DNA of 64,000 nt from positions 310,001 to 374,000 of the forward strand of contig NZ_CP072643.1 in NCBI RefSeq assembly GCF_018304765.1, read 5' to 3'. This DNA comes from Chloracidobacterium sp. N. GTDB taxonomy: Bacteria > Acidobacteriota > Blastocatellia > Chloracidobacteriales > Chloracidobacteriaceae. Within the stretch, counting starts at the first letter, position 1; every line of letters starts with the position of its first letter. Of this stretch, positions 1,525 to 34,960 are shown piece by piece. The notes under the pieces are model-generated. The model was not told the origin of the DNA and made no database searches. It saw only the letters and a list, made by a program, of their open reading frames with translations. The position numbers were made by a program, and so were the translations under genes.

Positions 1525-1840
1525 GGCTGGATTACGATGACGCCTTGGATCAGCCACGCTTATTCAGCAGCGGCGAAGGGCTGACGATATTCATCGGGTC
1601 TGAGAAAACGACAGGAAGCAAACCTGATGAGCCAGGGTTTGCAACCCCAAGGAAATCTCCACGGCAAAGCTGCCACCCGACACGCGCTTGTACCTGACGC
1701 CGCTCCGCCTGCCCTTCGCGGCGCGCGGAGCTTCAGTCCGTTGGTTGTACGCTCAGATCGCTACCGATGGCAGCGAGATCGGTGCGTATCGCTCGTCCTG
1801 CGTAACCGGTAAGGTCTGTGCCAGACCTGATTTCATCTAA
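1525..1840 (+). pseudogene. Probable decayed secreted-protein gene
   Basis: The 340 bases between the previous gene and the IscB element hold no intact gene. From about 1531 to 1650 one frame reads like protein (DYDDALDQPRLFSSGEG, then IFIGSEKT). From 1631 to the TAA at 1838-1840 another frame reads like the end of a protein (KLPPDTRLYLTPLRLPF, then RGASVRWLYAQIATDG and GKVCARPDFI). Joining the two needs one frameshift. The stop coincides with the edge of the IscB element. The call rests on how protein-like the text is, not on a known family. Confidence 0.3.
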
Positions 1841-3252
1841 ATTGCGCGGGAGACTCCGCCCTTCAGGGCGGAGAGGGATAGCGCGGCTCCTGTTCCCGCT
1901 TCTTCTTTCACGAAAGCTGTCCGGCTCCACGCATACCCATAACCGTCGGCACGTTGCATCAAGGCACAGAACCGGTGATGGATCCCTTGCACCAGACCGT
2001 TTTTGGTCTGGAGATTGAAACTGCCGCCGGCGCGAATGGCAACCCGACCAACATACGTGCCCACCTTCCTGCCAGTCGTCACCACCGCCCGCACCATGTC
2101 GCCCGTCTGAAATCCGAAGTGGCGTTTGCTGCGGGTCAGGTATCCGCGCGGGAAGCCATGCCGGTTGAGCCGTGTGCGCTGGTAGCTGCCGCGTCCGGCG
2201 CACTGGATGCCAAGGGTCAGCACGTTCCAGCCGTGCACGGCTGCGACCTGCCCCACGCAGACGGCATCGAGGGCGTGCGTTTTCGGAATACCGAGCCGCG
2301 AGCGATTGAATTTCGTCCGGCCGCCAGTACCCACCTCAACCGGAAGACCCGTTTCCTTCAGCGCCGCGTAAAGCGCCCAGCGGGTGCTGTTGACCGCTGA
2401 CGCATCACGCAGCGGGGATAGGGCCTGCGCTTCAATGCGCGCCAATCGCTGCGGGTCACGGGCCAGGAACTCCGCCACATCGCGGTTGCCCTTCTTCTGG
2501 TTGCAGGTTCGGCAAGCGATCACAAGATTGCTCACCCGATGACTGCCGCCTTTTGAGCGCGGATGGATATGGTCAATCTCCAACGGCACATCCTGCGTGT
2601 CACAGTAGGCGCACTTACGCTTCCACTTCTCCAGCAGGTATTCGCGTACCTCGTATGTACGGGCGGCTTCGGAAGCCGCCCCTACCGATACCGTCCGCAC
2701 CCGAATTTCGGGATGTTGCATCGCCTGCATATCAAAGCGCGCCAGTTCCTGCGAGATTGCGGTCACAGGTGTCCAGCGGCAAAGCCGATTGACCCAGGAA
2801 AGCGTTGTTTCCACCCGATGGCGCAGCGATGGGGCAAGCCATCCTTCAGGCTTCCGACGATTGGCGAACCGACAGGCGCGATGGCGCAGGTTGGCGCTTC
2901 GGCGTCTTCGCCGAAACGCCCGGCGGGCCGTCATCGCATCCCGGATCGCGTGGCCCCGGTGGGACAACTCCGCAAGAAACACCACATGCGCGGCTTGGCG
3001 CACTTCGCCCGTTTCGGCGTCAACCTCTTCGCTTTCCCGAACCAGCGCCAGGCCCGTGGTCCTGCTTCCCGGGTCGATCTTGATCCGCACAGGTTGCACG
3101 ACGGACGTTTCCACCGTCCGATCAACCAGACGGATCGTGAATGGCACGAGCCGATGTACCCGCGCGCGTCCGCGCTCAAGCAACAGCCGGGCCCGTTTTT
3201 CGGAACACGGCATCAGCGGCCGCTTCCGCTTGTCCAGGACAAACACTGCCAA
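1837..3252 (-). CDS. iscB: IscB RNA-guided nuclease (OMEGA family, Cas9 ancestor)
   Basis: This is a 471-residue protein with the full IscB order. A PLMP motif lies at residues 12-15 and RuvC-I (IKIDPGSRTTG) has its catalytic Asp at about 60. An Arg-rich bridge helix sits at about 108-133 and RuvC-II (ISQELARFDMQ) at about 166-176. The HNH domain has CAYC, EIDHIHP (His about 228) and CRTCN, and RuvC-III is HALDAVCVG. All catalytic residues are present. The frame is open to 3333, but TTG at 3252 is preferred. AGGAGGAG lies just upstream of it, the PLMP domain begins there, and the extra 27 codons fall in the omega-RNA. IscB cuts double-stranded DNA guided by that RNA. It probably also has a role in keeping the element in place after excision. 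Confidence 0.93.
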   Translation of the reverse strand: MAVFVLDKRKRPLMPCSEKRARLLLERGRARVHRLVPFTIRLVDRTVETSVVQPVRIKIDPGSRTTGLALVRESEEVDAETGEVRQAAHVVFLAELSHRGHAIRDAMTARRAFRRRRRSANLRHRACRFANRRKPEGWLAPSLRHRVETTLSWVNRLCRWTPVTAISQELARFDMQAMQHPEIRVRTVSVGAASEAARTYEVREYLLEKWKRKCAYCDTQDVPLEIDHIHPRSKGGSHRVSNLVIACRTCNQKKGNRDVAEFLARDPQRLARIEAQALSPLRDASAVNSTRWALYAALKETGLPVEVGTGGRTKFNRSRLGIPKTHALDAVCVGQVAAVHGWNVLTLGIQCAGRGSYQRTRLNRHGFPRGYLTRSKRHFGFQTGDMVRAVVTTGRKVGTYVGRVAIRAGGSFNLQTKNGLVQGIHHRFCALMQRADGYGYAWSRTAFVKEEAGTGAALSLSALKGGVSRAI

Positions 3253-3422
3253 GTCTGACTCCTCCTGTAACGGTCCCTTACGGGACTTGTGACGTGAGCC
3301 TTGCGGCCCATCTCCCCTCGGAAATGTCTGCAACCGGCTCCTTCCTTGCGGAAGCGATGAGAACCTTCGGCGCTTTACCGAAAAAACGCCGTAAAGCCCT
3401 GCACTTTAGGGCAGGGATATAA
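1840..3422 (-). mobile_element. IscB-type IS200/IS605-like element without transposase
   Basis: The element holds only iscB and its upstream structured RNA. The end beyond the iscB stop has a perfect hairpin, CTCCGCCC-TTCA-GGGCGGAG (1854-1873), lying inside the last codons of the gene. The other end has a hairpin CCCTGC/GCAGGG (3397-3416). Subterminal hairpins of this kind are the transposase recognition sites of IS200/IS605 elements. No TnpA tyrosine transposase is encoded here, so movement would depend on one supplied from elsewhere. Exact ends are uncertain by about 10 bases. The left end abuts the left end of the TnpB element that runs the other way. Confidence 0.7.
3253..3422 (-). ncRNA. 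omega-RNA of IscB (guide scaffold)
   Basis: The 170 bases upstream of iscB form a chain of short stems: GTCCC-TTAC-GGGAC (3273-3286), CTTCC-TTGC-GGAAG (3341-3354) and the terminal CCCTGC/GCAGGG hairpin (3397-3416). Two crossing stems give a pseudoknot: CGGCG 3368-3372 with CGCCG 3387-3391, and CTTTAC 3373-3378 with GTAAAG 3391-3396. IscB omega-RNAs are encoded at this position and carry the guide at the 5' end, just outside the element. The guide would therefore be read from about 3423-3440, which belongs to the left end of the neighbouring TnpB element. The structure is seen; the exact 5' end and guide are inferred. Confidence 0.7.
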
Positions 3423-4747
3423 GGCGCACGCTGTTTTATCAAGCCAAACCTGTGATAAAATAGCAGTATGAGAGTAATGGAAGCCAAGCTACTAAAAGGG
3501 ACAGCAGAGCAGTATCAGGCTCTGGATGAAGCCATCCGTACCGCACAGTTTGTCAGAAACAAATGTGTGCGGTACTGGATGGACAACAAGGGCGTAAACA
3601 AAGCTGTTCTCTATGCCCACTGCAAAGACCTGGCCAAAGAGTTTGCCTTTGTCAGGAAGTTAAACTCAGCGGCAAGGCAGGCAAGTGCAGAACGGGCTTG
3701 GGCTTCCATCTCCCGTTTCTATACCAACTGCAGAAACAAGGCGGTCAAGAAAGGGTATCCCAAATTTAAGAAGCATTGCCGTTCTGTGGAATACAAGGTA
3801 TCGGGCTGGAAGCTGTCAGAAGATGGGATGACTATCTCGTTCACCGATGGCTTCGGTGCTGGTACTTTTGCTCTGTATTGCAACGGCGAGGCAAGACACC
3901 ATATCCTGAACTCCAAAATCAATCGGGTGCGGGTGATACGCAGGGCAGATGGGTACTATGCCCAGTTCTGCCTGGATGTGGAGCGCAAAGAGCAGGGAGC
4001 ATACACAGGCAATGTGATTGGCATTGACTTGGGCTTGAAGGCTTTCTACACCGACCAGAACGGCAACCCTGTACAGTGTCCTAAGTTTTTGAGGCGTAGC
4101 GAAAGAAGGTTAAAGCAACACCAGCGCAGATTAAGTCGGAAGTTCAAAAAGGGGGCAAAATCCCAATCCAAGAACTACCACAAGCAAAGAAAGCGACTGG
4201 GCAAAGTGCATCTGAAAGTCCAACGCCAGCGTAAAGACTGGGCAATTAAGCAGGCACGGTGCGTGGTGGCATCTCACGATGTCGTGGCGTATGAAGACTT
4301 GCAGGTGAAGAACCTGGTCAAAAATCATCATCTTGCCAAATCCATTCATGATGCTGGCTGGTCTCAATTCACTGCGTGGCTGGACTACTACGGCAAGGTG
4401 TGGGACAAGGCAGTAGTCAGCGTACCGCCGCAGTACACCACACAGGACTGTAGTAACTGTGGGCATTATGGTAGTAAAAACCCTATCCACTAGAACCCAT
4501 AGTTGTCCTAAATGTGGATTTGAATTAGACAGAGACCAGAATGCGGCTTTGAACATCCTCAAGAAGGGACTAAGCATCTTGGGAATGGAGTGGCAAAACA
4601 GTACCTTTGGGCAAAAGGGAACTGCCTCGAAAGAGGGAACGCTTGGGGAGAGATGCACCGCTGCTTTAGAGGGGCAACCTGATGAAGTAAGTGCGCTCGC
4701 AGAACCAAGAACAAGAATCCCCTGCCTTTAGGCAGGGGAGTATGTCA
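3423..4747 (+). mobile_element. IS200/IS605-like TnpB element 1 (no transposase)
   Basis: The left end carries an imperfect inverted repeat, GCTGTTTTATC (3430-3440) against GATAAAATAGC (3454-3464), a few bases before the tnpB start. The right end carries a perfect hairpin, CCCCTGCC-TTTA-GGCAGGGG (4719-4738), followed by AGTATGTCAAC, a typical IS605 right end. The last tnpB codons run into this hairpin, as usual, because the 3' part of the gene doubles as omega-RNA. The element is clearly lower in GC than its surroundings, which suggests recent arrival. The guide would be copied from the DNA just beyond 4747, which is a fragment of another tnpB. Confidence 0.65.
3468..4731 (+). pseudogene. tnpB: TnpB RNA-guided nuclease, frameshifted in the zinc finger
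   Basis: The first 341 codons read as TnpB: an N-terminal helical domain, RuvC-I GIDLGLKAF (Asp 187), RuvC-II YEDLQVKNL (Glu 276) and the first zinc knuckle CSNCG. The frame then ends at a stop at 4491-4493. The rest continues one base out of frame: VVKTLSTRTHSCPKCGFEL and DRDQNAALNIL, which is the second zinc knuckle and RuvC-III, ending at 4731. A one-base insertion near 4465-4475 explains this. As it stands the product lacks the second zinc knuckle and the third catalytic Asp, so it should not cleave. ATG 3468 sits close behind an AT-rich TAAAAT box at 3456-3461. Confidence 0.85.
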
Positions 4748-4902
4748 ACAGCCAGACGTGCTCCAATTGTGGAAGTATCGGCGAGCGCGTCAGGCATCGT
4801 TTCGTGTGCAAAAAGTGTGGTCTCCGGGCGCACGCCGACGGCAACGCCAGTCGAAACCTTGCCCGGATTGGCAGTGGAGCCCCGCTGCCAAGGGCGGCTT
4901 TG
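4744..4902 (+). pseudogene. tnpB: 3' scrap of a second, different tnpB
   Basis: About 53 codons remain in one frame. They begin SQTCSNCG, continue VCKKCGLRAHADGNASRNLARIG and end where the next element begins. This covers both zinc knuckles and the RuvC-III Asp (HADGNAS) of a TnpB unlike the one on its left. The rest of the gene is missing on both sides. The scrap lies exactly between the right ends of two IS605-type elements facing each other. Both appear to have inserted into, or next to, this older gene, followed by loss of its 5' part. Confidence 0.75.
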
Positions 4903-6200
4903 AACCTCCCCCGGCTGAAGCCGGAGGATTCTGGTTCTTGCTACGCGGCCGCTTGCGCGGCCGTTTCGCGTACCCAGTTCAGGGCTGGTTCATGCAGCCC
5001 GCCCGCTGGAGCATGAAGAACCAGCGGGCAGCACAGCCCATACCAATCCCGGACATTCATCGCAGCATTGGCATCGGCGTGCGCCTTGTATCCGCACCGT
5101 GTGCAGACGTAGGCATGTTTTTGACGTTTGTTGATCGCCCCGCACCGATGGCAGGTCTGGCTGGTGTAGTGCGGAGGTACCGCATCCACCGCCACGCCAG
5201 CAGCCAGGGCCTTGTAGCGCACAAACGTCTCCAACTGATAGAACGGCCAATAGTCCCGGTTCTGCCCCGCATCCGACCTGGTGTCTTTTCGCTGCCGGGC
5301 AGAAGCCCGAATGCCCGAGAGGTCCTCAAAGCGGATTCCTGCCTGGCAGCGCTTGGCCAGGGCAACCAGTTGCTTGCTCATCACGTGGTTGATATGCGTG
5401 ACGATGCGCCGCTCCTTGTTCTCCAGCTTCCTGACCGCGCGGTGCTTGCCCGTGGCCTGCAGCATCTGTCTGCGCCTGGCAAACACCCGGCGCACATGCC
5501 GGATTTGCCGGGCTTTCCAGAACACAACCGGGCCATCGGGCGTTGCCGCCACTACGGGCACGTTCTGTCCGCGATCCACGCCGATCCAGCGGTCTCGTGG
5601 CTCCGCATCGGGAACTTCCATCGATACGGAAATAAGCACATACCAGACCCCACGGCGGGAGCAAAACAGCTTGATGTTGCCGGGCTTGGCCGAACCATTC
5701 AGTATCGCCTCCAGTAGTTCCCGATGAGAGGAGAGATGCACTTCAATCGGGATGCGCTTCCTGATTCCTCGCAACAGTCCGAAGGACACGCTGAACGTGT
5801 CCCCGACGCGGTGGAGCGTCCAGTTCTGGTTGTTGGTTTCAAGCGGCAGACGCCGAAAGTGCTTGGCCTTTGTCCTGGCGTTGGCGTTACGAATGGTTTG
5901 GTTGATCCAGCCGCTGCCGATTTCAACCTGAGTAAAGGACTTGGTGGTGAGCTTTCTGCGCTCGGCCTTCGGCATGGCAAGGATTTGATTGGCAACCTCG
6001 GTGTTGAGGCGCTCCAGCCGCGCAAACTCCTGCGCCTTGGCCTTGTTGAGGCGCAGAAACGGCAGCTTGAGGGTCTTGGTGAGTGTTGCCATGTTGAGAT
6101 TATCATGTATCTTGCAAGCCTATGCAAGATCATGGAGAGGGGTGGCGCACAAAGCGCGCCCGCCATTCATCCCGCGACTAAAGTCGCAGGCTTTCTGGCG
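4903..6200 (-). mobile_element. IS200/IS605-like TnpB element 3 (no transposase)
   Basis: Read on the minus strand, the right end is AAGAACCAGAATCC followed by a hairpin with arms GGCT/AGCC and CCTCC/GGAGG (4905-4927), then GTTCAAAG. This is the same layout as the right end of TnpB element 1. A second strong stem, CGGCCGC-TTGC-GCGGCCG, lies in the gene end at about 4945-4962. The left end beyond the gene start has the hairpin GCGACTAAAGTCGC (6174-6187), a standard IS605 left-end form. No transposase gene is present. The guide would be copied from below 4903, which is the tnpB-2 scrap. The left boundary is approximate. Confidence 0.65.
4941..6092 (-). CDS. tnpB: TnpB RNA-guided nuclease, intact
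   Basis: This is a 383-residue protein, a normal length for TnpB. RuvC-I is WIGVDRGQ with Asp 173 and RuvC-II is FEDLSGIR with Glu 256. The zinc finger uses Cys 314, 317, 330 and 333, and RuvC-III is HADANAAMN with Asp 340. All catalytic residues are in place, so the protein can be functional. TnpB cuts DNA next to a short adjacent motif, using an RNA transcribed from the 3' end of its own gene and the flanking DNA. No TnpA accompanies it. It is not closely similar to the TnpB on its left or to that of the IS607 element near 20 kb. Confidence 0.92.
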   Translation of the reverse strand: MATLTKTLKLPFLRLNKAKAQEFARLERLNTEVANQILAMPKAERRKLTTKSFTQVEIGSGWINQTIRNANARTKAKHFRRLPLETNNQNWTLHRVGDTFSVSFGLLRGIRKRIPIEVHLSSHRELLEAILNGSAKPGNIKLFCSRRGVWYVLISVSMEVPDAEPRDRWIGVDRGQNVPVVAATPDGPVVFWKARQIRHVRRVFARRRQMLQATGKHRAVRKLENKERRIVTHINHVMSKQLVALAKRCQAGIRFEDLSGIRASARQRKDTRSDAGQNRDYWPFYQLETFVRYKALAAGVAVDAVPPHYTSQTCHRCGAINKRQKHAYVCTRCGYKAHADANAAMNVRDWYGLCCPLVLHAPAGGLHEPALNWVRETAAQAAA

Positions 6201-6402: not shown

Positions 6403-9400
6403 CTATCGCCGCCGCCGCAGGGCAAACGGGGTGATGACGGCAAACAGCGCCAGCCATCCCAGCGGCCACCACGAAACCGACTTCGAGGGTGGCGTCTGGG
6501 CTTCGGCGTACCAGCCCTTGGTGGGGACTTTCGGCACCTCGTTCGATACCTTATAGACCGTCCCATCCGGCTTGAGGTAAAGCCGTCGCATTTCTTCGAG
6601 ATTGAAGGGCCGCGCCCCACGCCGCCCGAAGACCACAAGCTGGTGGCCGCTTTCATCCACGCCCCGGTCACGGTCCAGCCCCTTCGACACCGCCAGCGAT
6701 TCACCCTTGGTGGGATGCGTCGCAATCAACCGTGGCTCCGGCCGCGGGCTGAAACCGCTGTTCGTCGCCATGGTCTCCGGTGAGGTGAGCTGCACGATGC
6801 GCAGACCGTTCTTACCATCAGCAACGTAGGCAAAGGCGCTGGCATTCGTCATCCCCACCTTCACATCGTGGGCATCGTTGATGACGCCGCCAGCCGTAAA
6901 GATTTGGTCAATTTTCGGCTGTTCGGGCCGTTCCACATCCACAATGACCAACCCCTGCTTGCCACCGGCAATGTAGGCGTAGGTGCGCGCCACATAAATC
7001 TGGTGGGCGTCCTCCAGCGGTATCGTCGCGCCTGGCACGAGACGGGCTTTTTCCGGCAGCGTGATGTCCACGACATGCATGCCGGTCGCATCCGTGACAA
7101 AGGCATAGCGGAACTGAACGGCAATGCCCTTGGGCTTTTTGAAGCCCTCGACAATCGAGACCACCTTCGGCGCAGCGGCATTGGCCACATTGACGATGAC
7201 CAGTCCCCGGTCACACAGAATGTAGGCATGGTCGCCAGCCACGGTGAGATTTTCCGCTCCGTTGAGCAGACCGTTTGGGTTGAAGGTGTAGTCCTTCTTG
7301 AGAAAGTTGTTCGCCGGATCGCCGTCGAGCAGGGTGGCGGCGTTGATCATGACCAGCCCTTCCTCCCGGTCGCTGACGTAGAGATAGGCATAGACCAAGC
7401 TGATGGGCTGTTCCTCGTTTTCGGGAAACCGCTGACGGGTCGGGTCAACCCCCAGCGTCGTGGGCGAAGCAATGGCCGTCGCGTATTTCGTCTTGACATA
7501 GAACTTCTGCCCCAGCGGTGAAACCGGCGCGGTCGTGATGCGTTCGGAGAAGTCCTTGTTGTCAATGTTGGCGATGTCATAGATGTGGACGCCATGCTCG
7601 CCTTCGGCCACATAGAGATACTCGCCCCGCATTTGCAGGCTCAGGGCATGGCCGTGGTGGTGGTAGTGCTCGTGGAGCTTGTCGCCACCCGCCTTGTGCT
7701 TTTTGTACTCCTTCGGATAGGCAAGTTCGTGCAGTGTGCTGCCGATGACGGCCTGCGGCTCGCTGCGCTCCGTCGCCACGACGGCCGAAATGCCATGGTG
7801 GCCTTCGGCGACATAGACGTAGCGCCCCAGGAAGTTGACGTAGTTCGTCCCCAGCAGCAGCAACTGCGCCATGATGGCGTTGTTGTCGTTGTCTTTGGAA
7901 ATGTGGCAATCGGTGCAGCCTTTGGTCTCCCGCGCGCGCACCGTGTGGGGAACGTGCGTGTTCATGGCCTGTCCCGAATAGCCCTCGGAAGAAATCGTCT
8001 GCTGCTGCGAGTACAGCCACAGCCGGTTGGCATTCTGCGAACCGACGATGACCGCCGAGGATGAACGGACGGGTGCAATGCGGTTGCCGGTGGCGGTGCC
8101 GTCAATGCCCAGCATGAACACATCATCCCGCAGCACCTGGAAGTTGTAGGAAGTCCAGTTGCGTGTCTCCGGGCCGCCTTCGTTGTGATTCATCGGACGC
8201 TTCCGGTTGGCTGTCATCGGCAGGTGACAGCCAAAACAGCTCGTCATCCAGGCCGAATGACAGGCATAGCAGGTCATCTTCTGGTCGCTGTGGGCAAGCT
8301 GGCTGTCCTTGCTTTCCTCCGGCTTGGCCGCCGGGTCCCACACGTCGCCCTTCATCAGCAGCTTGGCGTAGTGGGATTTTTCACTGTAATGCTCGTTGCC
8401 GGGCGTGACCGAGTCCCTGGTCTGCACCACCACCCAGAATTTCTCCGGGTCCACCATCGAATACTGGATGACCTTGCCCTTGTAGGGGCCGGCTGTTGGG
8501 ATTTCGAGCACCGATGCCTGCCGGAAACCACGCGCGCGGCGTTTTGAGGGGTCGCGCTCATAGACCGTCCGGGTTTTGTAGCCATCCAGCGAGTTGCTGC
8601 CGCCCGGCGCTTCCGCATCCGTCTTGTTACGCGCCGTGAACTTGCCTGTCACCAGTGCGTCATCGGCGCTCTTTTTGCGTGCGCCCCCAGCAAAGCCAGT
8701 CGTCAACGACTTTGGATTGGCATAGGCGTAAATCGAGCCGTGACAATCCTGACAACTGATCTCGATGGAAGCCCGGGGTTCGCCGTAAATGAGCCGGTCG
8801 CCGTGGCCATCCTGTGAGAAGTGGCAGTCCACACAGTGGAGGCCCTTTTCCAGGTGAATGTCCTTCAGGTGCACCGGCACGCCGCTGCGCACAGTGGTTT
8901 TGTTAACCTCAACGCCTTCAGACGTATAGTTCACCGCCTCGCGCAACGCTTCCGGCGTCACGTTCGGCACGGGTTGGTCGTTTTCATCCAGGTAGCGGCC
9001 CTTGCGGTCCTGTTTGAAAACGGCCCGGTAAATCCAGCCGTGGCCGTGGAAATCGGCAAACTGGGTGCGCTGGGCCTTGGGGTTGACCTCAGTCCAGACT
9101 TCACCCAGAAAGGCCCGGTCGCCCCACTTGCCGCGCTGGGCCGAGCCTTCCGGGTTGTGGCGGGCAATGTTTTCCAGTTCTTCGTCGCTGCGCTTGAGCG
9201 GCGTTTCCGGGTACATCGGGCGGCCATCGGTTTCGTTATCCCACCACATGAAGCCCTGGTAAGTCGTGAGCATGTTCGTTCCCGGATGCATGTGGCAGAC
9301 CATGCACTGGCTGGTCGGGATGGCGTTGGTCAGGACGTGGCGCACCGGATGGCCCGGCTCATCTTTGGGAATCGTGGGGTCGGCGGTTTTCGTCGTGCCG

Positions 9401-10623
9401 CGATTCGTGTGGGCATAGTCAAATCTGGTCGAGGAATGCACCGGCGAGCGGTCGTTGGCGTAAGGCGTGTGACACGCCGTGCAGCCGCTGGAACGGTAGT
9501 CGCCGGGATGGTCGTTGGTGCCCATCAGGGAGGTCAGCGGATCGAGCAGGCGCGTTTTTTGCAGTCCCAGGAACACCGGGTCGGTACGCAGCACCGTCCC
9601 AAACCCGCGCGGGCTGAGCTTGACTTCGGGCAAACCGGCCAGATCGGCTTCCGGGAAGGGGTTGCCCACTTCCGATTGCTTCCTGCCCCCGCGCTCGAAG
9701 ACGCGCAGGATGTTGCCCGGCTGCGTGACTTCCCACCGGGGCAGCGGCGTGATGAACGGGATGATGCCGCGATACTTCCGTTCGGAAGGCGTTGGCGGCT
9801 TGAGGGACATCAGCGCCTGGGGCGCGCCGTCCTGGTTGTAGCTTTCCCCCCACCGGGTGTCTTTGTAGGGGTACGCGCCATTGTTGTAGAGCGCCGCTCC
9901 CCACAGCATCGCCCCGTGGGTCATCATGCTGGTCTTGACCTTGTCCACGATGAACGCCTGCCCGTCCAGCCGCGCATCCTTGTTGTGACACTCACCGCAG
10001 GTGATGTCGGCCACCCGCAGGTCGCCCGGATTGACGAACCGCACGAAGTCCAGATTTTCCTTGAGCAGGGCCGTGTAGGACAGCTCCGGGTTGGCGGAGT
10101 TGGCCGAGCCGTCCTTGCGCTTCCACAGCTTCGGGTTGGTGGGCTGCGGATGGGCTTCGTTCTGGGCTTTGATGTACGCCGGCTGGCCCTTCTCACTCCC
10201 GGCAGGCTTCATGACCTCGCCGTTTCCGCCGTGGCAGTACACACAGGTGATGTTGCGTCCGATGTTGAGGGCGCTGCCGTCGGGCGCGATGTGGGCCGTT
10301 TTGTAACCGCCTTCGTAACCGGTGTGGCAGCTTATACAGCCGCTGTCGTTGCCGTTCTGAAGCCGCCAGTCATCCTCGGTCTTGTCTTTCGCTGCCCGGT
10401 AAATGCGCGCGCGTGCCGTAGCCGGGTCAACCGGCGCGGAAGGTTTGGATGCGCCTGCCCCCGCGGCCGGCCCATCCTGCGGCGTGGTCTCCACAACCAG
10501 CGTGGTCGCATCGCTGCCGGCCACCGGACGAAACGCCGGCAGGAGACTGAAACCAATGAAGGCCGTACTGACGGCGGCACAAAGGGTCACAACTTTGATT
10601 CTGAAGGCAATCGCCATGGTCAA
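6403..10623 (-). CDS. Decaheme c-type cytochrome with LVIVD-type beta-propeller repeats
   Basis: This is a 1406-residue exported protein: signal peptide (residues about 1-30), then about 850 residues holding ten CXXCH haem sites (CISCH, CVYCH, CGECH, CTACH, CMVCH, CVDCH, CQDCH, CYACH, CFGCH, CTDCH). About 400 residues of LVIVD-like repeats follow (for example [37 protein letters not shown]), which should fold as a propeller. The C-terminus is a hydrophobic segment flanked by WWP and RRRR, like a membrane anchor or sorting tail. It lies 57 bases downstream of an outer-membrane barrel gene on the same strand. This suggests electron transfer across the periplasm or outer membrane. The substrate is unknown. 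Confidence 0.88.
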
Positions 10624-10680
10624 ATACCCTTCCGTCCGGGAGACAGGCTTGGGGAGGGCCTGTCACACAGACGCATCGCA

Positions 10681-12567
10681 TCAGAACGTAAAGATGGCTT
10701 TGGCGTAGAGCGAAAACAGGAAACGTGACTGTGCACCACAGTTCAGTCCCGAACAGTTTGACGTGAAAATGTCCTTGAAGCCATCGAGCGGATTCATGAC
10801 CGAAAAGCCACCCTTGATGATCATGTTTTCACTCAGCAGCGGGCGGTACACGACGCCCGCCCCGTAATCAATCCCGACGTTGTTGCGGATGCGGCGCTGG
10901 AACGTCAGCAACTGCAACGATTCCGTGTGGTGGAAACGGAGGTAGTTCAGATTCGCCAGCAGCTTGAGCTTGGGCGTCAGATTGGCTTCGTACCCCAGGT
11001 TGGCCACGATGATGCCCGGATTGACGAAATTCGCCTGCCCCTGCAGCTTGCTGCTCCGCAGACTCGGAATGAGGCTGCCCTGGGTCACGAGCGCCACGCC
11101 CGCCCGCGTCAAACGGATTTCCTGGCTGTTCCAGAAACTGTTTTCGCCGCCGGCAAAAAACTGATTGTCGAGAATCGAGTCGAAGCCGCGCGCCACCCGG
11201 TCGGTCGGGTTCGAGTCGCCGGAGGAAAAGAAGCCCGACACCTGGAACCGCTGCCAGTCGCGGTCATACGACAGCTCCAGCGCCGCCAACTGGGCATTGA
11301 TGCGCGTTGGACGCCCGGCAATCGGTTGCAGCGAATCGCGCCCCAGCACCTGGTAAAACGCATGGTTGATGTTGATGCGGCGGAAGTGACCGTTGCCGGT
11401 CCAGCCGATGTAGCCTGCCTTGACGCTGTGCGGCGTGACGGGGCCCACCTGCACCGGCCGCACCAGAAAGCGGTTCTGGTCGAATTTGATGCTCGGCTGG
11501 TCATCGTTGTAGTGGACACTCAACTGCATCGTGTAGCCGGGCTTGATGAAATCCTGCCGGTAGAGATTGGCCACCCACACCCGCTGATTCCGCTGGTCAA
11601 AGGTGTTGATGCCGCTGTTGGTGTCTTTTTCCAGCATGTAGAAAAACGCCGCGTTGAACTGCCACTTGTTGTCGCGGAAGTTCCCGAACAGGCGCGCGCC
11701 CAGGTTGAAGTCATCAAAAATCAACCCGCGGAAGTCGCTGTTGAACTGTTGGACGCCCACCCGCAGCGAGGTGGAATCAAAAAACGGACTGTGCCCGCCA
11801 CGGCTGCCGCGCCCCCGCAGAAACGGAAACAGCCGGGTTGTGTCGCCCAGCCGCACTTCGGCAAAGGCTTCCTGGAAGCCGATGTGCGTGTCAAACCGCG
11901 TCGTCCCCTTGCGGACATCCCGGTTGACGATGCCGTTTTCCCGTACGGCCAGGTAGTTCAGATTGAACACCGGCGTGAACTTGATGCGCCAGTCAGGTGG
12001 CTTGAAGGCTGTATCGCCGTGGAACAGCTCAACCGAGGTGACAAAGTTCTGCTGGTTGAGGAACTGTCCGCCGCGTCCGAAAAACTCGGCTGCGCCGGGC
12101 CGGCGGGCGTTGATGTCCTGCGGCAGGGGCGTCCGCCGTCCATCCACGAAGGTGATGCTCTCGAAGGTCAGGACGAGAAACGTATGCTGCCCCAGGATGG
12201 GATAGTCGCCTTTGAGGACGTTGAGCCGGTACGGATTGAGAATACTGCCCTTTTCGTAGCGGTTCCATTCCGGGAAACCAATCCGCCACCGGTCCTCGAT
12301 GGGCACGCCCACGTCGCTGTCGCGGCGCTCACTGCGGGGCTTGACGCTGCTGGGTCCTTCCGCGCCGGGCACGGTCAGCTCGCGCAGTTCAGGAATGGCA
12401 TCGGTCGTACGTGGTGCACGCGCCCCATCCTGCCGGGACTGGGCTTCCTGGACGACAGGAGCCAGCGCCGCCTCGGAAACCGTCGTCAGATTTTGGGCCG
12501 GAACGGAACAGCCCAGCCACATCCCCCACCCAACGATGAGCGCGACCAAACGGCGAGTCTGGTTCAT
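10681..12567 (-). CDS. Outer-membrane beta-barrel protein partnered with the decaheme cytochrome
   Basis: This is a 628-residue protein. The ATG at 12567 is preferred over the longer frame because AGGAG lies about 9 bases upstream and a signal peptide follows (MNQTRRLVALIVGWGMW, ending near SVPAQ). The body has many alternating amphipathic strands (for example QFNAAFFYMLEKD, KLKLLANLNYLRF) and it ends in a C-terminal Phe (KAIFTF), the usual signal for barrel assembly. It has no plug domain or TonB box. As the first gene of a two-gene unit with the decaheme protein, it may be a porin-like conduit, as in porin-cytochrome systems. That role is inferred from position only. Confidence 0.75.
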   Translation of the reverse strand: MNQTRRLVALIVGWGMWLGCSVPAQNLTTVSEAALAPVVQEAQSRQDGARAPRTTDAIPELRELTVPGAEGPSSVKPRSERRDSDVGVPIEDRWRIGFPEWNRYEKGSILNPYRLNVLKGDYPILGQHTFLVLTFESITFVDGRRTPLPQDINARRPGAAEFFGRGGQFLNQQNFVTSVELFHGDTAFKPPDWRIKFTPVFNLNYLAVRENGIVNRDVRKGTTRFDTHIGFQEAFAEVRLGDTTRLFPFLRGRGSRGGHSPFFDSTSLRVGVQQFNSDFRGLIFDDFNLGARLFGNFRDNKWQFNAAFFYMLEKDTNSGINTFDQRNQRVWVANLYRQDFIKPGYTMQLSVHYNDDQPSIKFDQNRFLVRPVQVGPVTPHSVKAGYIGWTGNGHFRRININHAFYQVLGRDSLQPIAGRPTRINAQLAALELSYDRDWQRFQVSGFFSSGDSNPTDRVARGFDSILDNQFFAGGENSFWNSQEIRLTRAGVALVTQGSLIPSLRSSKLQGQANFVNPGIIVANLGYEANLTPKLKLLANLNYLRFHHTESLQLLTFQRRIRNNVGIDYGAGVVYRPLLSENMIIKGGFSVMNPLDGFKDIFTSNCSGLNCGAQSRFLFSLYAKAIFTF

Positions 12568-12870
12568 GCCAAAACTCCTGTCAGCCTGGTGAAGTGCAGC
12601 GACCCCTTGGGCGCCGGGCGTCGCAACTGGGACATCAAGTGGCACAGGCGATGTCTCATTTGAGTTTGTAAGCAATCACACCTTTCATAGGGTGTCAAAC
12701 AGTAGTTTGGAACAACCGACACACGTCCAGAATCGTGCTTTTCAAACTGATAAAAGGTCTGTGACGACCGGAGAAAAACCGACTAGGATGGCACTGTGCT
12801 GCCGCCAACAATCCTGGCTGGCACGCCTGCTGCGCGCGGCACAGACATCCCTTTCAGACAAGGACGCACC
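12568..12870 (+). other. Divergent intergenic region
   Basis: These 303 bases separate the barrel-cytochrome unit (minus) from the DinB-like gene (plus) and should hold both promoters. I see AT-rich patches around 12660-12760 but no convincing pair of -35 and -10 boxes, no clear operator and no gene. Confidence 0.5.
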
Positions 12871-19492: not shown

Positions 19493-20143
19493 ATGCTCAT
19501 GGAAAGCACTATAAGCACAGGCAAGGCGGCAAAACTCCTTGGTGTCTCGGTCAAGACGTTGCAGCGTTGGGAACGCGAAGGAAGGCTGATTCCGGTGGCC
19601 CGAACGGACAGCAACCGCCGCCTCTACACTGAGACGCAGATCCGTGAGTTCATCGGTTTGCGGCAGGCCAACCATGCGCCAACCAAGCTTGTCGCCTACT
19701 GTCGGGTATCGAGTGCGGCGCAGAAGCCGGACCTGGCGAATCAGCGCAAAGTGCTGGAAGAGTTCGTGGTGGCGAAGGGATTGGCGGGGGTCGAGTTTAT
19801 CGAGGAAGTGGGCGGCGGGCTGAACTTCAGGCGCAAGCGGTTTCTGGCCCTTATGGACGAGATCGGGCGACGGGAAGTCAGGATGCTAATCCTCGCTCAC
19901 CGGGACCGCCTCACCCGTTTCGGCTTTGAGTGGTTCGAACATTACGCCCAAACCCATGGCTGCGAAGTGCTGGTACTCAACCAGGAACGGCTGTCTCCCG
20001 AACAGGAAATGGTGCAAGACTTAATGACCATCGTGCGCTGTTTTTCGTCCCGGCTGTACGGTTTGAGGAACTATCGAAAGAAGTTGGATGAAGCGCTGAA
20101 ACAGGATGCGAATGACGTCAAAAAGGCCCAACAATGCAACTGA
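19493..20143 (+). CDS. tnpA: IS607-type serine recombinase (TnpA)
   Basis: This is a 216-residue protein. Residues about 8-55 form a MerR-like helix-turn-helix (AAKLLGVSVKTLQRWEREG) that binds the element ends. Residues about 65-200 form a small serine recombinase catalytic domain with YCRVSSAAQKPDLANQR (catalytic Ser 73 or 74) and the conserved HRDRLTRFG arginines. The protein moves the element by serine-mediated strand exchange at dinucleotide cores. Either ATG 19493 or ATG 19499 can be the start; promoter placement favours 19499. The 3' end overlaps tnpB by ten bases. Confidence 0.93.
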   Translation: MLMESTISTGKAAKLLGVSVKTLQRWEREGRLIPVARTDSNRRLYTETQIREFIGLRQANHAPTKLVAYCRVSSAAQKPDLANQRKVLEEFVVAKGLAGVEFIEEVGGGLNFRRKRFLALMDEIGRREVRMLILAHRDRLTRFGFEWFEHYAQTHGCEVLVLNQERLSPEQEMVQDLMTIVRCFSSRLYGLRNYRKKLDEALKQDANDVKKAQQCN

Positions 20144-21474
20144 CCCACAAGATTGCTCTTTGTCCGACTCCTGAGCAAGTGGACTACTTCAAGCGCGCCT
20201 GCGGCACGGCGCGGCGTGTTTGGAACTGGGCGCTCAATGAGTGGAACAGGCAATACGCAGCAGGCGGCAGGCCAAACGCCATGGCGCTCAAAAAACAGTT
20301 CAACGCCATCAAGTACACCGACCCGCAGTGGCTCGATGAGAACGGTCGGCCTTGGTTGCAGGACATTCACCGGGATGCCCACGCCCAGCCGTTTGCCCAT
20401 CTCGCCAAAGCCTGGGAAAGATTCTTCACCGACCTCAAGGCTGGCAAAGAGGCACACGCACCGCGCTTCAAGAAAAAGGGCCGTTGCCGCGACAGCTTTT
20501 ATGTTGCCAACGACAAGTTCACCCTGGAAGGCAAGACGATCCGTCTGCCCAGGATCGGTGAAGTCGCCATGACCGAGGAACTGCGCTTCGCGGGCAAGAT
20601 TTTGGGCGCAACGGTTTCTCGCACCGCGGATCGTTGGTTTGTGGCAATACAGGTCGAGGTGCCTGATGCGCAATTCTATCGGCGTCGCACGTCGCACGAG
20701 GTCAACGGCAGCGACCTGGGCATCAAGGCTGCCGCAACGATCTCCAGCGGTGAAGTCATCGAGGCGCCCAAGCCGCTCAAAGCAGCGCTGCGCCGTCTGG
20801 AAATCCGTAGCCGACGTCTCAGCCGCAAGCTGGAAGCCGCCAGGAAGGCAGCAGGATTTGAACGCCATGCCCGCCTGCCTGAAGGAACGCGCCTGCCGGT
20901 ATCGAACAACCGGCAGAAGTCCGCTGCGATATTGGCAAGGCTCCATGCCCGCATTGCCAATATCCGGGCGGATTTCACCCACAAGCTCACGACTCGACTC
21001 TGCCGCGAAAACCAAGCGTTAGTGATCGAGGATTTAAACGTCAAAGGGATGCTGCAGAACGAGAAACTCGCCCGCGCCATCTCTGACGTGGGTTTTGGGA
21101 TGTTGCGCTCGCAGTTGGAATACAAGGCCCGGCGCTACGGTACTCGTCTTACCATCGCTGATCGCTGGTATCCAAGTAGCCGACTGTGCTCCATCTGTGG
21201 CTGGAAGAACGAGGCGCTGACATTGAGAGATCGAAAATGGGTGTGTGCTCAATGTGGTGCGCACCATGACCGTGACCTCAATGCAGCGCTGAACCTGAAA
21301 CGGCTGGCAACCGAAACTGCCCTACCCGTGGCGAGTCCGTCCAGCAATGGCGGCGCTGCGGCGGGGACCGTCCCCGCCGTAGTCGGGAAAGTCACGCCTG
21401 TCAGATACGACGGTGGTCAACAGGACACGTCGGGGCAGGAAGAGAACCGTGCGCACTTTTGCGCACATTCTTGA
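20134..21474 (+). CDS. tnpB: TnpB RNA-guided nuclease of the IS607 element
   Basis: This is a 446-residue protein. The N-terminal helical domain carries ARRVWNWALNEWNRQ. RuvC-I is NGSDLGIKAA with Asp 194, where Ser replaces the usual hydrophobic residue before it. RuvC-II is VIEDLNVKG with Glu 299, the zinc finger uses Cys 352, 355, 371 and 374, and RuvC-III is DRDLNAALN with Asp 381. It is intact by all visible criteria. The last 60 residues are low in conserved motifs and overlap the part expected to become omega-RNA. A scrap of a close relative lies at about 53.6 kb. Confidence 0.93.
   Translation: MQLTHKIALCPTPEQVDYFKRACGTARRVWNWALNEWNRQYAAGGRPNAMALKKQFNAIKYTDPQWLDENGRPWLQDIHRDAHAQPFAHLAKAWERFFTDLKAGKEAHAPRFKKKGRCRDSFYVANDKFTLEGKTIRLPRIGEVAMTEELRFAGKILGATVSRTADRWFVAIQVEVPDAQFYRRRTSHEVNGSDLGIKAAATISSGEVIEAPKPLKAALRRLEIRSRRLSRKLEAARKAAGFERHARLPEGTRLPVSNNRQKSAAILARLHARIANIRADFTHKLTTRLCRENQALVIEDLNVKGMLQNEKLARAISDVGFGMLRSQLEYKARRYGTRLTIADRWYPSSRLCSICGWKNEALTLRDRKWVCAQCGAHHDRDLNAALNLKRLATETALPVASPSSNGGAAAGTVPAVVGKVTPVRYDGGQQDTSGQEENRAHFCAHS
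21449..21466 (+). repeat. Right-end palindrome of the IS607 element
   Basis: GTGCGC-ACTTTT-GCGCAC is a perfect 6-bp stem inside the last tnpB codons, 20 bases before the protease start. It probably belongs to the 3' end of the TnpB omega-RNA and may also act as a weak terminator. Confidence 0.5.
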
Positions 21475-29705: not shown

Positions 29706-31133
29706 ATGCCATCCGATTCACTCATGACAATTCTGGTTGTCGAGGACGACGCCGTGCAGCGGCGGCTGCTCCGGTTTTTTCTGGAACAGCAGGGATACCG
29801 GGTCATCGGCGTGTCAAATGTTAGTGAGGCGCTGACGTGCATACAGCATGGGCTGCCGGATGCCCTGCTGCTCGATGCCATGCTGCCCGATGGCTCCGGC
29901 CTGGACGTGTGTCGGCAGATTCGCCAACTCCCGGAGGGACAAACCCTGCCCATTCTGTTGTTGACGGCCTATGACATCGAGCCGGTCATCGTCGAGGCGT
30001 TTGAAGCCGGAGCGACCGATTTCATTGCCAAGCCGGTCAATCTCAAGCTGCTCGAGCGCCGGTTGTACCACCTGCTACGCGCGGCGCGTCACGAAGCGGC
30101 GCTCCGGGAACGTGAACAGCAGTACCGCACGCTTGTCAACACCCTGCCTGATGTCGTCATTCGCGGCCGGCGGGATGGAACCGTCACGTACTTCAAGCCC
30201 AGCGAAACCTGTCCGGCGGAGATGTTCAACCTCGAAATCACGCCTGACACCCGTTTGGCGGCCATTCTCCCGGTGGAAGGTGTCACCAGGATTGAGCATG
30301 CACTGAACAACCTGACCGCTGAAACCCAGCTCACGGTGGAGTACCGGGCCCAGTGCCAAGGTGTCTGGCGTGAGTTCGAGGCGCGGCTCATTGCCGATGG
30401 CCCGGATACGTTTGTGGCCCTCATCCGGGATGTCACGGACCGCAAAACAACCGAGCGCCTGCGCGAAGACTTTACGGCCATGGTCGCGCACGACATCCGT
30501 TCACCCCTGACAGCCATGCAGATGGCGCTGGAACTGCTCGAAGCCCAGGATGCCTATGCAAACCAGAACCTGCAGGAAATCGTCTCCGTAGCCCGCCAGG
30601 GACTGAACAAGGTTCTGCAGCTTGCCAGTGACCTACTGGAACTGTTCCGCGCCAATCAGACCGGCATGACCCTGCTCAAAGGCGTCGTCTTCCCCACCGT
30701 CCTGCTGAAACGCTGTGTGGGTGAAATCAGCTTGCAGGCGCAGGGCAAAAACATCGAACTGACACTGGACGCCCCGGAAGACCTGCCGCCCTTCGTCGGG
30801 GATGGCCCGAAGCTGGAGCGGGTCGTCTCCAACCTGCTCTCCAATGCCCTGAAGTTCACGCCGGAAGGCGGACGCATCACAGTCAGCGGCGCCGCCGACG
30901 GTGAATGGGTGGTCATCAGCGTGGCCGATACCGGCCCCGGCATTGCGCCGGAGTTACAGGCAACAATGTTTGAGCCTTACCGCCAGGGCGGGAAACACCG
31001 CAGCCTGGGGGTGGGTCTCGGTCTGGCCATCGTCAAGCGCATTGTCACCGCCCACCGGGGACGGATTTCCGTTGAAAGCACCGAGGGGCAGGGCACGACC
31101 TTCACCGTGCGCCTGCCCCTTCACCTCAACTGA
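29706..31133 (+). CDS. Hybrid sensor: receiver, PAS-like domain, histidine kinase
   Basis: This is a 475-residue soluble protein. The receiver domain (about 7-125) has the phospho-acceptor Asp 57 in LLLDAMLPDG and Lys 109 in IAKPVN. A PAS-like domain (about 135-245) follows. The kinase core has VAHDIRSPLTAM (His 262), the N box NLLSNALKFTP (Asn 380), and the ATP-lid motifs DTGPGIA and GVGLGLAIVK. The receiver-first order suggests that the kinase is switched by another kinase, not by a membrane signal. It stands alone, next to a convergent TonB receptor gene. Confidence 0.93.
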   Translation: MPSDSLMTILVVEDDAVQRRLLRFFLEQQGYRVIGVSNVSEALTCIQHGLPDALLLDAMLPDGSGLDVCRQIRQLPEGQTLPILLLTAYDIEPVIVEAFEAGATDFIAKPVNLKLLERRLYHLLRAARHEAALREREQQYRTLVNTLPDVVIRGRRDGTVTYFKPSETCPAEMFNLEITPDTRLAAILPVEGVTRIEHALNNLTAETQLTVEYRAQCQGVWREFEARLIADGPDTFVALIRDVTDRKTTERLREDFTAMVAHDIRSPLTAMQMALELLEAQDAYANQNLQEIVSVARQGLNKVLQLASDLLELFRANQTGMTLLKGVVFPTVLLKRCVGEISLQAQGKNIELTLDAPEDLPPFVGDGPKLERVVSNLLSNALKFTPEGGRITVSGAADGEWVVISVADTGPGIAPELQATMFEPYRQGGKHRSLGVGLGLAIVKRIVTAHRGRISVESTEGQGTTFTVRLPLHLN

Positions 31134-31141
31134 GCCACCCC

Positions 31142-34100
31142 TCAGAACTGAAACTTCAGCGCAAACTGGAACTGCCGGGGCGGGACGGCCGTCGCCACGG
31201 CCCGCCCAAAGGCCGGCGCTTCCAGAATCCTGATCGGCGTTGCAAAGTGGGTGCGGTTGAACAGGTTAAAGGCCTCAACCCGCAGCAGCAGGGCATACCG
31301 TTCGGCAAACACAAACCGCTTGGTCAGCGCCACATCCACCAGTGCCACGCCGGGCGCGCGGAACGTGTTGCGCCCGACGAGGCCCTCGCCTGGACCCGTA
31401 AAGTTGAAGGAAGTCAGGGTCAGCGGGTTGACGCCCGGCGCCAGCGCAATCTGCTGTGCGCCGCGCCGCCGGAGCACCAACCCCTGCGTCGTCGCCAGAC
31501 GGTCAGTGCGGTTGCCGTCGCGGTTCGTGTCCAGCCCTGTGATCACCGTGAAGGGCTGCCCGGTCTGCAGGGTCACGATCCCTGACACCTGAAACCCACC
31601 CAGCCACGGGTTGGAGGCCAGCCAGGGCAGGTCATACTGCACGCCCGTCGTGAACCGGTGCCGGATGTCAAACGACGCGCTGCCCCGTTCAAGCCGTGTG
31701 ATGCTGGGAACGTCAAGTTCGATCTGCGACCGGTTGGCGTTGCCGGCGGTGTCGAACAGTTCCGAAGTGCTGTCAATGGCATGCGCCCACGTATAGGCGG
31801 ATTGGAATGTCAGCCCACGTGTGAACCGCTGCCGGACGCTGATTTGCAGGGCATGGTAGGTGGCGTCGGCATCGGTCGAAAAACCCGAAATGGCCCCGGC
31901 CGCCGTATCATTCCGCCGCTGCAGGACCTGCACCTGGTCAAAGGGGCTGGTCGGCGTGGCCTGGAAGAAGTACAGCGGCGTCAGCGCCCCCCCATTGGGC
32001 GTGCCGGGGCGGATGATGTTGCCGCCAAACGTGCCGACGTAGGCCACGGCCGCCGTCAGCCGGTCGGCCAGCACCTGTTCCACCGACAGTGACACCTGAT
32101 GCACCCGCGCCACGCTCATATTCCGCCGTGGCAGCGTATAGGCCAGACTGAAGTTCTGGCGGTCGAACAAATCCCCCAGAAACAACGGCGGCGACCCAAC
32201 GATAATCGGCGCCGCAACAGAGGCCGCCGTTGGGCTTGGACTTTCACTGCCGGGCGTGACGTCGGGAAGCGGAGGGACACGTCCGCCACACCGGCCGCTC
32301 CCCGGCGGACACAGGAAAATCGCCGGATTGGAACGCAGGATGTCGGGAAACACGATGCCGGACCGGAAGTTGGACTGCACACTGTTGGGGAACAGATTAC
32401 GGGACTGCCCGGTGATGGTGAGCGGGATGATGTCGTAGAACATCCCGTAGCCTGCCCGCACGGCCGTGCGTCCGCTGCCAAACACATCCCACGCCAGACT
32501 GGCCCGACCGGCAAAGTTTCGGCGCGAGGGGTCATAAATGCCATCCCGCTGGTTGACAAACCCCTGGTAGTTGTTGAACGCGGCAAAAAAGGCCGCCGCC
32601 CGGGGCTGGTCGGCCGGCGCAACGGGAAAATCCTCGGGACGCACGGCCAGGCCACGGCGCAGCCGCTCATCGCCGGTATCGGGAACCGTGTTGAGTTCAT
32701 ACCGCACCCCGCCCCGGACGATGACCCGTGAGCCAAGGCGGACCGTCTCGTTGATGAAGAAGTTGTATTCGGTTGTCCGCAGCCCCAGGGTCGAGTTGGG
32801 ATCGGTCACAAAGGTCTGCCCAATATCGGAGGGCAGCCCCAGTCCCACGAAATCCACCCCGCTGGCATAGCGGAAGTTTCCGCCCGGCGGAATGACGATA
32901 CCCGGCGCAAAGCTGAGGTTCAGCCGGTAGTTGATGTCGGCAAAACTGTTGGAGCGAATGAAGCGGATGTCGGCACCGGCCTTGAGCGTTCCGCGTCCGT
33001 GATTCCAGATGAAGGTATCGGCAAGCTGAATCGTGTTTACCACCCGCCCCTGCGGAAAGATGCTGGGGTCCACACCGATACTGCTGTAGGGCAGCACGTT
33101 CACCCGACCCAGCGGGCCGCTGCGTCCATCGGGCAATCCATCGCCCGTCAAATCCACTCCAATCGAGCGGGTCTGGAAGATGAACGGACTGCCGGGGATT
33201 TCATCGAAGCCAAGCCGCTGCCGGCCGTACGACAACCGCATCTGGTTTGAAAACCGGTCGGAGATGCGGGTCGTGAAATCAAAGGCGACATTGTGGGTGC
33301 GCGTCCGGGAATCCACCCCGGAGTTGATGGCGTCCCCGACGTTCGGCAGCCGCCCCTGGTCGTCGCTGAGGTTGTAGCGCGCCGTAAACAGCGTCGGACG
33401 GTCAAACGGGCTGAACTGGTAGTCACTCCGAAATGAAAACAGCGTCGCCGCGCCGTTACCCGCCAGGAACTGCGTCAGGGTATTGACGCCATGCGGGCCG
33501 CCCGGATTGTTGGGCAGGGGGTACAGATCGAGCAGATCGCGCCCCAGCAGGCTGGGAACGCGGCCGATGGCCAGCGCCGCCGCCCGCTCAGCGGCCGTCG
33601 GGACGGCAAAGTGTGTCGCCTGGGTACGATTGACGCCAATCCGCTCGAACGCCGTGAAAAAGTGCCAGCGGTTTTGCCGGAAGGGGCCGCCCAGCGTGGC
33701 CCCTGACTGGTGACGGGTGAAGGGCGGCTTGCCAATCCGTACCGAGCCGGCGCGAAAATCAAAGGCATCGCGCGCATTGAGCCGGGCGTCGTTGAAGAAC
33801 GAGTACAGGTTGCCGTGAAACTCGTTCTCACCGGTGCGCGAGACGACGTTGATCTGTCCGCCGCCGTTGCGCCCGCTTTCGGCATCGGCCAGCAGGGTGG
33901 TGATCTGAAATTCCCGGAGACTCTCGATGGGCTGGGGTGCCGTCGCCACGTAACCGCGCCGCCGCCCGCCCACGTCCTGGTCATTGTTGTCGGCGCCGTC
34001 AATGGTGAAGTTGTTGCCGCGCGCCCGAACGCCGTTGACCACGAACTCGCCCCCGCCCACGTTCGGCCCAATGCCGGGCCCGCTGACGCCAAAGAAGGAG

Positions 34101-34678: not shown

Positions 34679-34960
34679 GGCAATGGCCTCGGTTTGAAAG
34701 ACAGGTTTTATCTTCAAAAGGTTTGGATGGCACTCAAGAGTACTTTGAAGGGTGCCGGAAACGAAATGGAATCGTGGGTGTGTCAACACATGCACCCTAT
34801 AGCGAATGCATGGGATCAGGTCTTGTCAACTGTTTTCTTGAGTCCCGGAATTTGCGTATGATGCCCGCCACCCAGCCCCTCCCGTCACGACTGGGCGGGT
34901 TGGCTATTGCCCTGCCAACCGTCCGGTGCTTTGTTCTATTCCATTTGAAGGACCCTCACG

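Follow-up and report, generated by a model that had tools for sequence, protein, structure and literature searches.

The locus analysed here raises the question of whether a multihaem cytochrome fused to a β-propeller and the outer-membrane barrel encoded directly upstream of it form one electron-transfer unit, and if so of what kind. Both genes lie on the minus strand, between positions 6403 and 12567, of a 64,000-nucleotide stretch of Chloracidobacterium sp. N (contig NZ_CP072643.1 of assembly GCF_018304765.1, positions 310,001 to 374,000), hereafter the window. Chloracidobacterium is a phototroph that harvests light by a chlorophyll-based system. Our data show that the barrel and the cytochrome form a real unit, and this unit very probably belongs to an electron-transfer system whose other partners can be named. 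With moderate confidence, we favour the reading in which the two proteins make up an outer-membrane complex, conduit or surface complex, at the outer end of an electron-transfer chain that spans the envelope.

Conservation of the gene pair across genomes

To the sequence-only reading of this locus, a test had been attached beforehand, namely the co-occurrence of the two genes in other genomes. The set comprised 247 Acidobacteriota genomes, among which the source genome (G000; 3.7 Mb in two contigs, C1 and C2) stands with two congeners. The cytochrome was found at full or near-full length in 25 of these genomes, belonging to 16 families; lesser matches, restricted to the LVIVD part or, in one genome, to a short haem stretch, were left out of this count. 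The barrel accompanies it in 24 of the 25 carriers and none of the other Acidobacteriota genomes has the barrel alone; in the 25th carrier, without a barrel match, the cytochrome sits on a 4.3-kb contig. The corresponding hypergeometric p is 1.9e-32, a value in which the kinship of the genomes inflates their independence, although the 16 families agree nonetheless, and the sequence-only reading passes the test set for it. A scan of named genomes revealed the cytochrome also in nine metagenome-assembled genomes of Planctomycetota, and the barrel was present in all 13 further genomes tested, nine of them labelled planctomycete. Strand and order of the pair are identical in 41 of the 41 loci having both genes on the DNA stretch, with gaps mostly below 600 nt, and at locus L044 the barrel is absent from the stretch examined and present elsewhere in that genome. 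The tree distances of the two proteins are correlated (Pearson 0.87, Spearman 0.49), a correlation that is confounded by species relatedness and was not used as evidence.

In Chloracidobacterium the pair has divergent flanks, with DinB and MFS genes, as might be expected if an unrelated porin happened to stand beside a cytochrome. Such a chance neighbourhood is refuted by a co-occurrence with p of about 1e-32 and by the unvarying order and strand of the pair, and it deserves practically no credit.

A decahaem cytochrome ending in a seven-bladed propeller

The frame of the cytochrome gene (6403-10623, minus strand, stop counted) encodes 1406 residues from a TTG codon, but an ATG at 10617 is the likelier start, so that the gene would cover 6403..10617. 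Behind an N-terminal signal peptide region (10516..10617, minus strand, from hydropathy), the ten-haem domain extends from residue 96 to residue 907 (7903..10338, minus strand), with CXXCH motifs at residues 96, 127, 209, 381, 440, 597, 624, 785, 796 and 903, whereas shuffles of the same protein contain 0.015 such motifs on average and at most 1. In 38 relatives, the two cysteines and the histidine of all ten sites are invariant, the third site being CX3CH in about half of them. A further 12 histidines, kept at 100% or 97%, are candidate distal ligands, and their number would be enough for a bis-His ligation of the ten haems. The CXXCK motif of catalytic haems was found neither in the cytochrome nor in its 38 relatives, in which all sites are CXXCH or CX3CH; together with the 12 additional conserved histidines, this is the pattern expected of an electron conductor. 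Similarities to described cytochromes are local, with weak matches to Pfam c-type cytochrome families near residues 587-637 and, at haems 1-2 and 6-7, profile similarity over short stretches to octahaem nitrite reductase/NrfA (E 1.8e-6). No match was returned by phmmer searches of the cytochrome or of the barrel against the PDB, and the nearest named relative of the cytochrome, from Chloracidobacterium sp. CP2_5A, is 91% identical.

The LVIVD family (PF08309) matches the cytochrome in three stretches with 76.2 bits for a cut-off of 20.2 (E 1.2e-21). The structure was modelled with AlphaFold2 on a relative (locus L093, model m02d2bb1db5b1, pTM 0.80), a shorter protein that is 56% identical to the window cytochrome, and in this model a seven-bladed propeller follows straight after haem 10, with a Z-score of 26.4 to 1l0q. 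The haem domain of the model, built without haems, is uneven, and propellers alone filled the matches of a fold search. Transferred to the window, the propeller would comprise residues about 933-1319 (6667..7827, minus strand), and it may offer a docking surface for a partner or a substrate. The motif count, the PF08309 match and the model confirm the protein with ten haem sites and a LVIVD part that had been described from the letters of the window. A metal centre of the NosZ or cd1 type was also considered for the His-rich segment 976-1013 of the propeller and was ruled out, H989 being the only one of these histidines that is conserved (97%).

Attachment of the cytochrome to the membrane

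The window cytochrome ends with a hydrophobic segment followed by RRRR (6406..6468, minus strand), a tail that the sequence-only reading had compared with a sorting signal. This proposal is not supported. For sorting of the PEP-CTERM/exosortase type, no CTERM model matches the window cytochrome, the exosortase family PF09721 was not found in the source genome and a C-terminal transmembrane tail occurs in just 14 of the 38 relatives, mainly in Blastocatellia, which makes it a lineage-restricted anchor. A lipobox scan revealed a lipobox-like N-terminal cysteine in the cytochromes of Phycisphaerae, most of the other cytochromes being without lipobox. The anchoring varies by lineage, which suggests a selection for membrane attachment and not a fixed sorting signal.

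An 18-strand barrel and the possibility of a substrate channel

The barrel gene, upstream of the cytochrome gene on the minus strand with 63 nt between its stop and the cytochrome ATG, covers 10681-12567 (10681..12567, minus strand) from its own ATG, the reading frame extending to a TTG at 12675. Its product ends with ...KAIFTF and was modelled as 18 strands (AlphaFold2 model m0d9428d340b0, pLDDT 77.6), so that the barrel with a C-terminal Phe announced earlier was recovered. The closest folds are those of AlgE (Z 26), then of the OprD-family channels/OccK (Z about 24). The window barrel gave no Pfam or NCBIfam match and its profile no match in the PDB. Among 37 barrel relatives, Alginate_exp (PF13372) was matched by four (best E 4.8e-9), the window barrel remaining unmatched, and no MtrB/PioB Pfam family was found, one spurious PAS being the sole other match. 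MtrB is not among the listed fold matches of the barrel, an absence that does not exclude likeness. In its strands, and also in a loop of 70 residues, L7 (residues 485-554; 11014..11223, minus strand), the barrel roughly reaches the conservation of the cytochrome. By the order of the strands in the model, this loop is predicted to lie outside the cell. Extracellular loops of such barrels normally drift.

A barrel predicted to be a specific sugar or peptide porin had been named beforehand as speaking against the sequence-only reading. The AlgE/OprD-like fold counts in part against that reading; a shared fold does not, for its part, establish a shared function. One may picture the barrel as a selective channel through which a soluble oxidant such as an oxyanion enters. 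The decahaem–propeller protein would then be a periplasmic terminal reductase, no haem-borne electrons passing the outer membrane. The 18-strand fold, the four Alginate_exp matches and the resemblance of haems 1-2 and 6-7 to octahaem nitrite reductase would all fit, but a reductase of the NrfA or octahaem type would be expected to carry a CXXCK catalytic haem. The scarcity of lipoboxes among the cytochromes is in agreement with a periplasmic enzyme, and all 38 cytochromes match ExtM, whose gene cluster includes the selenite-channel candidate ExtI (PMC5877670). On the side of the barrel, an anion funnel is unsupported, since charges of both signs are predicted in the lumen, about 13 of them positive and about 15 negative, and the conserved and presumably extracellular L7 suggests a protein partner or a plug. 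We regard this combination of channel and reductase as a serious but rather unlikely alternative to the outer-membrane electron-transfer complex.

Linked genes point to a probable wider electron-transfer set

The genes recurring in the neighbourhood of the pair encode HbpS-like proteins, c7-type cytochromes with nine or four haems, a ten-haem FHA protein, a protein with flavin adenine dinucleotide (FAD), cNMP and 4Fe-4S domains, NuoE/F-like proteins and c554-type tetrahaem proteins. The most constant of them are the HbpS-like proteins (PF03928), which carry a signal peptide and are present at 27 loci (L080:4589-6508 and 26 others), and NuoE/F-like genes adjoin the cytochrome in L039, L040, L091 and L096. 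The most complete arrangement, in genome G042, is an operon of six genes on one strand, separated by 10 nt or less or overlapping, which encode in this order the FAD/cNMP/4Fe-4S protein (791 residues), a protein with five transmembrane segments (275 residues), an FHA–ten-haem membrane cytochrome (774 residues), an HbpS-like protein (570 residues), the barrel (661 residues) and the cytochrome (1204 residues). The five-segment protein has no family match. Because only four histidine columns are invariant in all of nine relatives, as two pairs with a spacing of 14 residues, it is predicted to be a transmembrane di-haem cytochrome b, the haem binding being deduced from this histidine pattern.

The near-constancy of the HbpS-like neighbour may bring to mind a complex in which these proteins, together with the cytochrome, protect the envelope from redox stress or handle haem. 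Such a role would leave both the chain of b-type and c-type cytochromes and the FAD/4Fe-4S module unexplained, and it appears very improbable to us.

At the scale of the genome set, a profile of the FHA haem module matched 23 of the 247 genomes, 21 of them carriers of the cytochrome and 2 not (p about 2e-24). Some of the sequences behind this profile are themselves encoded beside the cytochrome, which biases the profile somewhat. A single-sequence search adds the module in G025 and G211, which brings it to 23 of the 25 carriers. When the HbpS-like protein of the source genome was used as a query, 12 genomes were matched, all of them carriers. In the source genome itself all modules are present. 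An HbpS-like gene and a nine-CXXCH cytochrome gene are found at C2:125.2-128.6 kb, a second nine-CXXCH cytochrome at C2:737.6-739.0 kb, and at C1:526-532 kb (L111:6128-12321) a protein of 1,079 residues joins FHA, c7, 4Fe-4S and YpdA-like FAD domains, with seven c-haem sites, its eighth CXXCH being a ferredoxin motif. The neighbour of this protein joins cNMP domains, 4Fe-4S and a five-segment region resembling the di-haem cytochrome b. The modules fused in these two proteins of contig C1 are separate proteins in other genomes. The source genome also encodes a 604-residue cytochrome with eight CXXCH (L112:4737-6548; G000:C1:1964.7-1966.5 kb), which is unrelated to the pair.

The near-exceptionless pairing of barrel and cytochrome, taken together with the electron-transfer genes linked to them elsewhere, makes an electron-transfer unit likely. 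The inner-membrane and periplasmic partners, which carry the electron-transfer case, had been missed in the sequence-only reading.

A proposed path for electrons and its direction

In the order that we propose, a cytoplasmic reductant would deliver electrons to the module made of 4Fe-4S and of an FAD domain resembling pyridine-nucleotide oxidoreductases, from which they would pass to the transmembrane di-haem cytochrome b. They would then cross the membrane to the periplasm-facing, membrane-anchored FHA cytochrome with its 7-10 c haems, and from there reach the nine-haem c7-type cytochromes. These could finally reduce the decahaem–propeller cytochrome, held at the barrel, where an exchange with a substrate outside the cell would take place.

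Several observations weigh against the outer-membrane part of this scheme, or against its extension to Chloracidobacterium. No lipoprotein signal was detected by the lipobox scan in the Chloracidobacterium cytochrome, and its C-terminal transmembrane tail could be an anchor in the inner membrane. The barrel of MtrB has 26 strands and is wider than one of 18; the 18-strand barrel resembles substrate channels and is probably too narrow for a decahaem rod to pass through. To these points, and to the bias of the FHA profile, is added the scattering of the modules over the source genome, where their link to the pair would rest on homology.

The direction of the flow is more likely outward than inward. 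For the inward case, the complex would take electrons from an external donor and feed them to the periplasm, and possibly on to the reaction centre or to reverse electron flow. Chloracidobacterium being a phototroph, and conduits of the MtoAB/PioAB type running inward without a surface cytochrome, such a use is conceivable, but the operon ties the pair to NADH and FAD modules, which are usually electron sources, and phototrophy is not known for the majority of carriers in these families. Inward flow is thus improbable in our opinion.

A bolder version of the outward scheme can be formulated, which we put forward tentatively and consider unlikely to hold as a whole. Some Acidobacteriota and Planctomycetota would share a complete wire that does without quinones and connects NAD(P)H or ferredoxin in the cytoplasm with the cell surface, by way of flavin/4Fe-4S, di-haem b, FHA–multihaem and c7 proteins to the decahaem–propeller cytochrome at the 18-strand barrel, the cNMP and FHA domains controlling the flow. 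The phototrophic acidobacterium might have kept this wire for releasing electrons at night or for gaining them in the light.

Other genes of the window

Just downstream of the cytochrome gene, three genes of the RNA-guided nuclease type follow one another (1837-6092), one IscB-like with RRXRR and HNH (1837-3333, minus strand) and two TnpB-like with OrfB/Cas12f1-TNB (3468-4493, plus strand; 4941-6092, minus strand). Further on, an IS607-like element (19493-21474) has a MerR-type resolvase gene overlapping a TnpB gene. At 31142-34795 lies the gene of a large TonB-receptor-like outer-membrane protein, with CarboxypepD_reg and an OMP_b-brl_4 barrel, adjoined by that of a response-regulator/histidine-kinase hybrid (29706-31133).

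Comparison with known systems

The known outer-membrane conduits are mostly those of Proteobacteria and of Geobacter-like bacteria, with barrels of the MtrB or of the Omb/Ext type. As in MtrAB, MtoAB and PioAB, a decahaem cytochrome gene stands here beside the gene of an outer-membrane barrel. The 37 barrels differ from those of these systems in having no MtrB/PioB Pfam match and 18 strands of AlgE/OprD-like fold, and the haem domain, about 810 residues long and fused to a propeller, is unlike MtrA, a protein of roughly 300 residues. AlgE and the OprD channels share the 18-strand fold of the barrel (Z 26 and 24) at about 12% identity, but the barrel is encoded with cytochromes and not with polysaccharide genes. 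At haems 1-2 and 6-7 the profile locally resembles those of octahaem nitrite reductase and NrfA (E 1.8e-6), from which the cytochrome differs by its ten haems, its propeller and the lack of CXXCK.

A closer parallel is found in the Geobacter extHIJKLMNOPQS cluster, in which ExtI is porin-like and ExtM is a 12-haem cytochrome, ExtI being needed for full reduction of selenite and tellurite and proposed to be a selenite channel (PMC5877670). There too, a multihaem cytochrome is encoded with a porin-like protein and with an inner-membrane module of cytochrome b and Fe-S. The ExtM model (NF040943) is matched in part by 38 of the 38 cytochromes, with 60.4 bits for the window protein and 92.0 for the first member of the alignment, and the two cytochromes are distant relatives. 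The differences are nevertheless clear, since the scores of the members inspected (60-92 bits) are below the cut-off of 800, the haems are ten and not twelve, no propeller is reported in ExtM, and the barrel has no ExtI-family match. In Verrucomicrobia of humic lakes, a novel porin with at least 20 predicted strands is encoded beside multihaem cytochromes (PMC5615132). This association of porin and multihaem cytochrome in a non-proteobacterial phylum is like ours; compared by description only, those clusters differ by an eight-haem periplasmic cytochrome for which no fused propeller is described (PMC5615132). In the literature searched on multihaem proteins with LVIVD or FHA and on extracellular electrons in Chloracidobacterium, many subscription papers being outside its scope, we found no description of the present unit.

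The suggestion that the pair could be a different type of electron-transfer unit is strengthened by the pairing and by the linked electron-transfer genes, whereas the barrel is no relative of MtrB by any test made. Most likely the pair stands at the outer end of a gene set that had no name before, best called a variant of the porin–cytochrome electron-transfer systems. It differs from them by the fold of its barrel, by its propeller-fused cytochrome and by an inner-membrane set that seemingly starts at flavin/Fe-S and not at quinol, and it occurs in soil Acidobacteriota, in Planctomycetota and in a chlorophyll-based phototroph. If this reading is true, extracellular or oxyanion redox chemistry would become predictable in lineages that are not usually counted among the electroactive ones.

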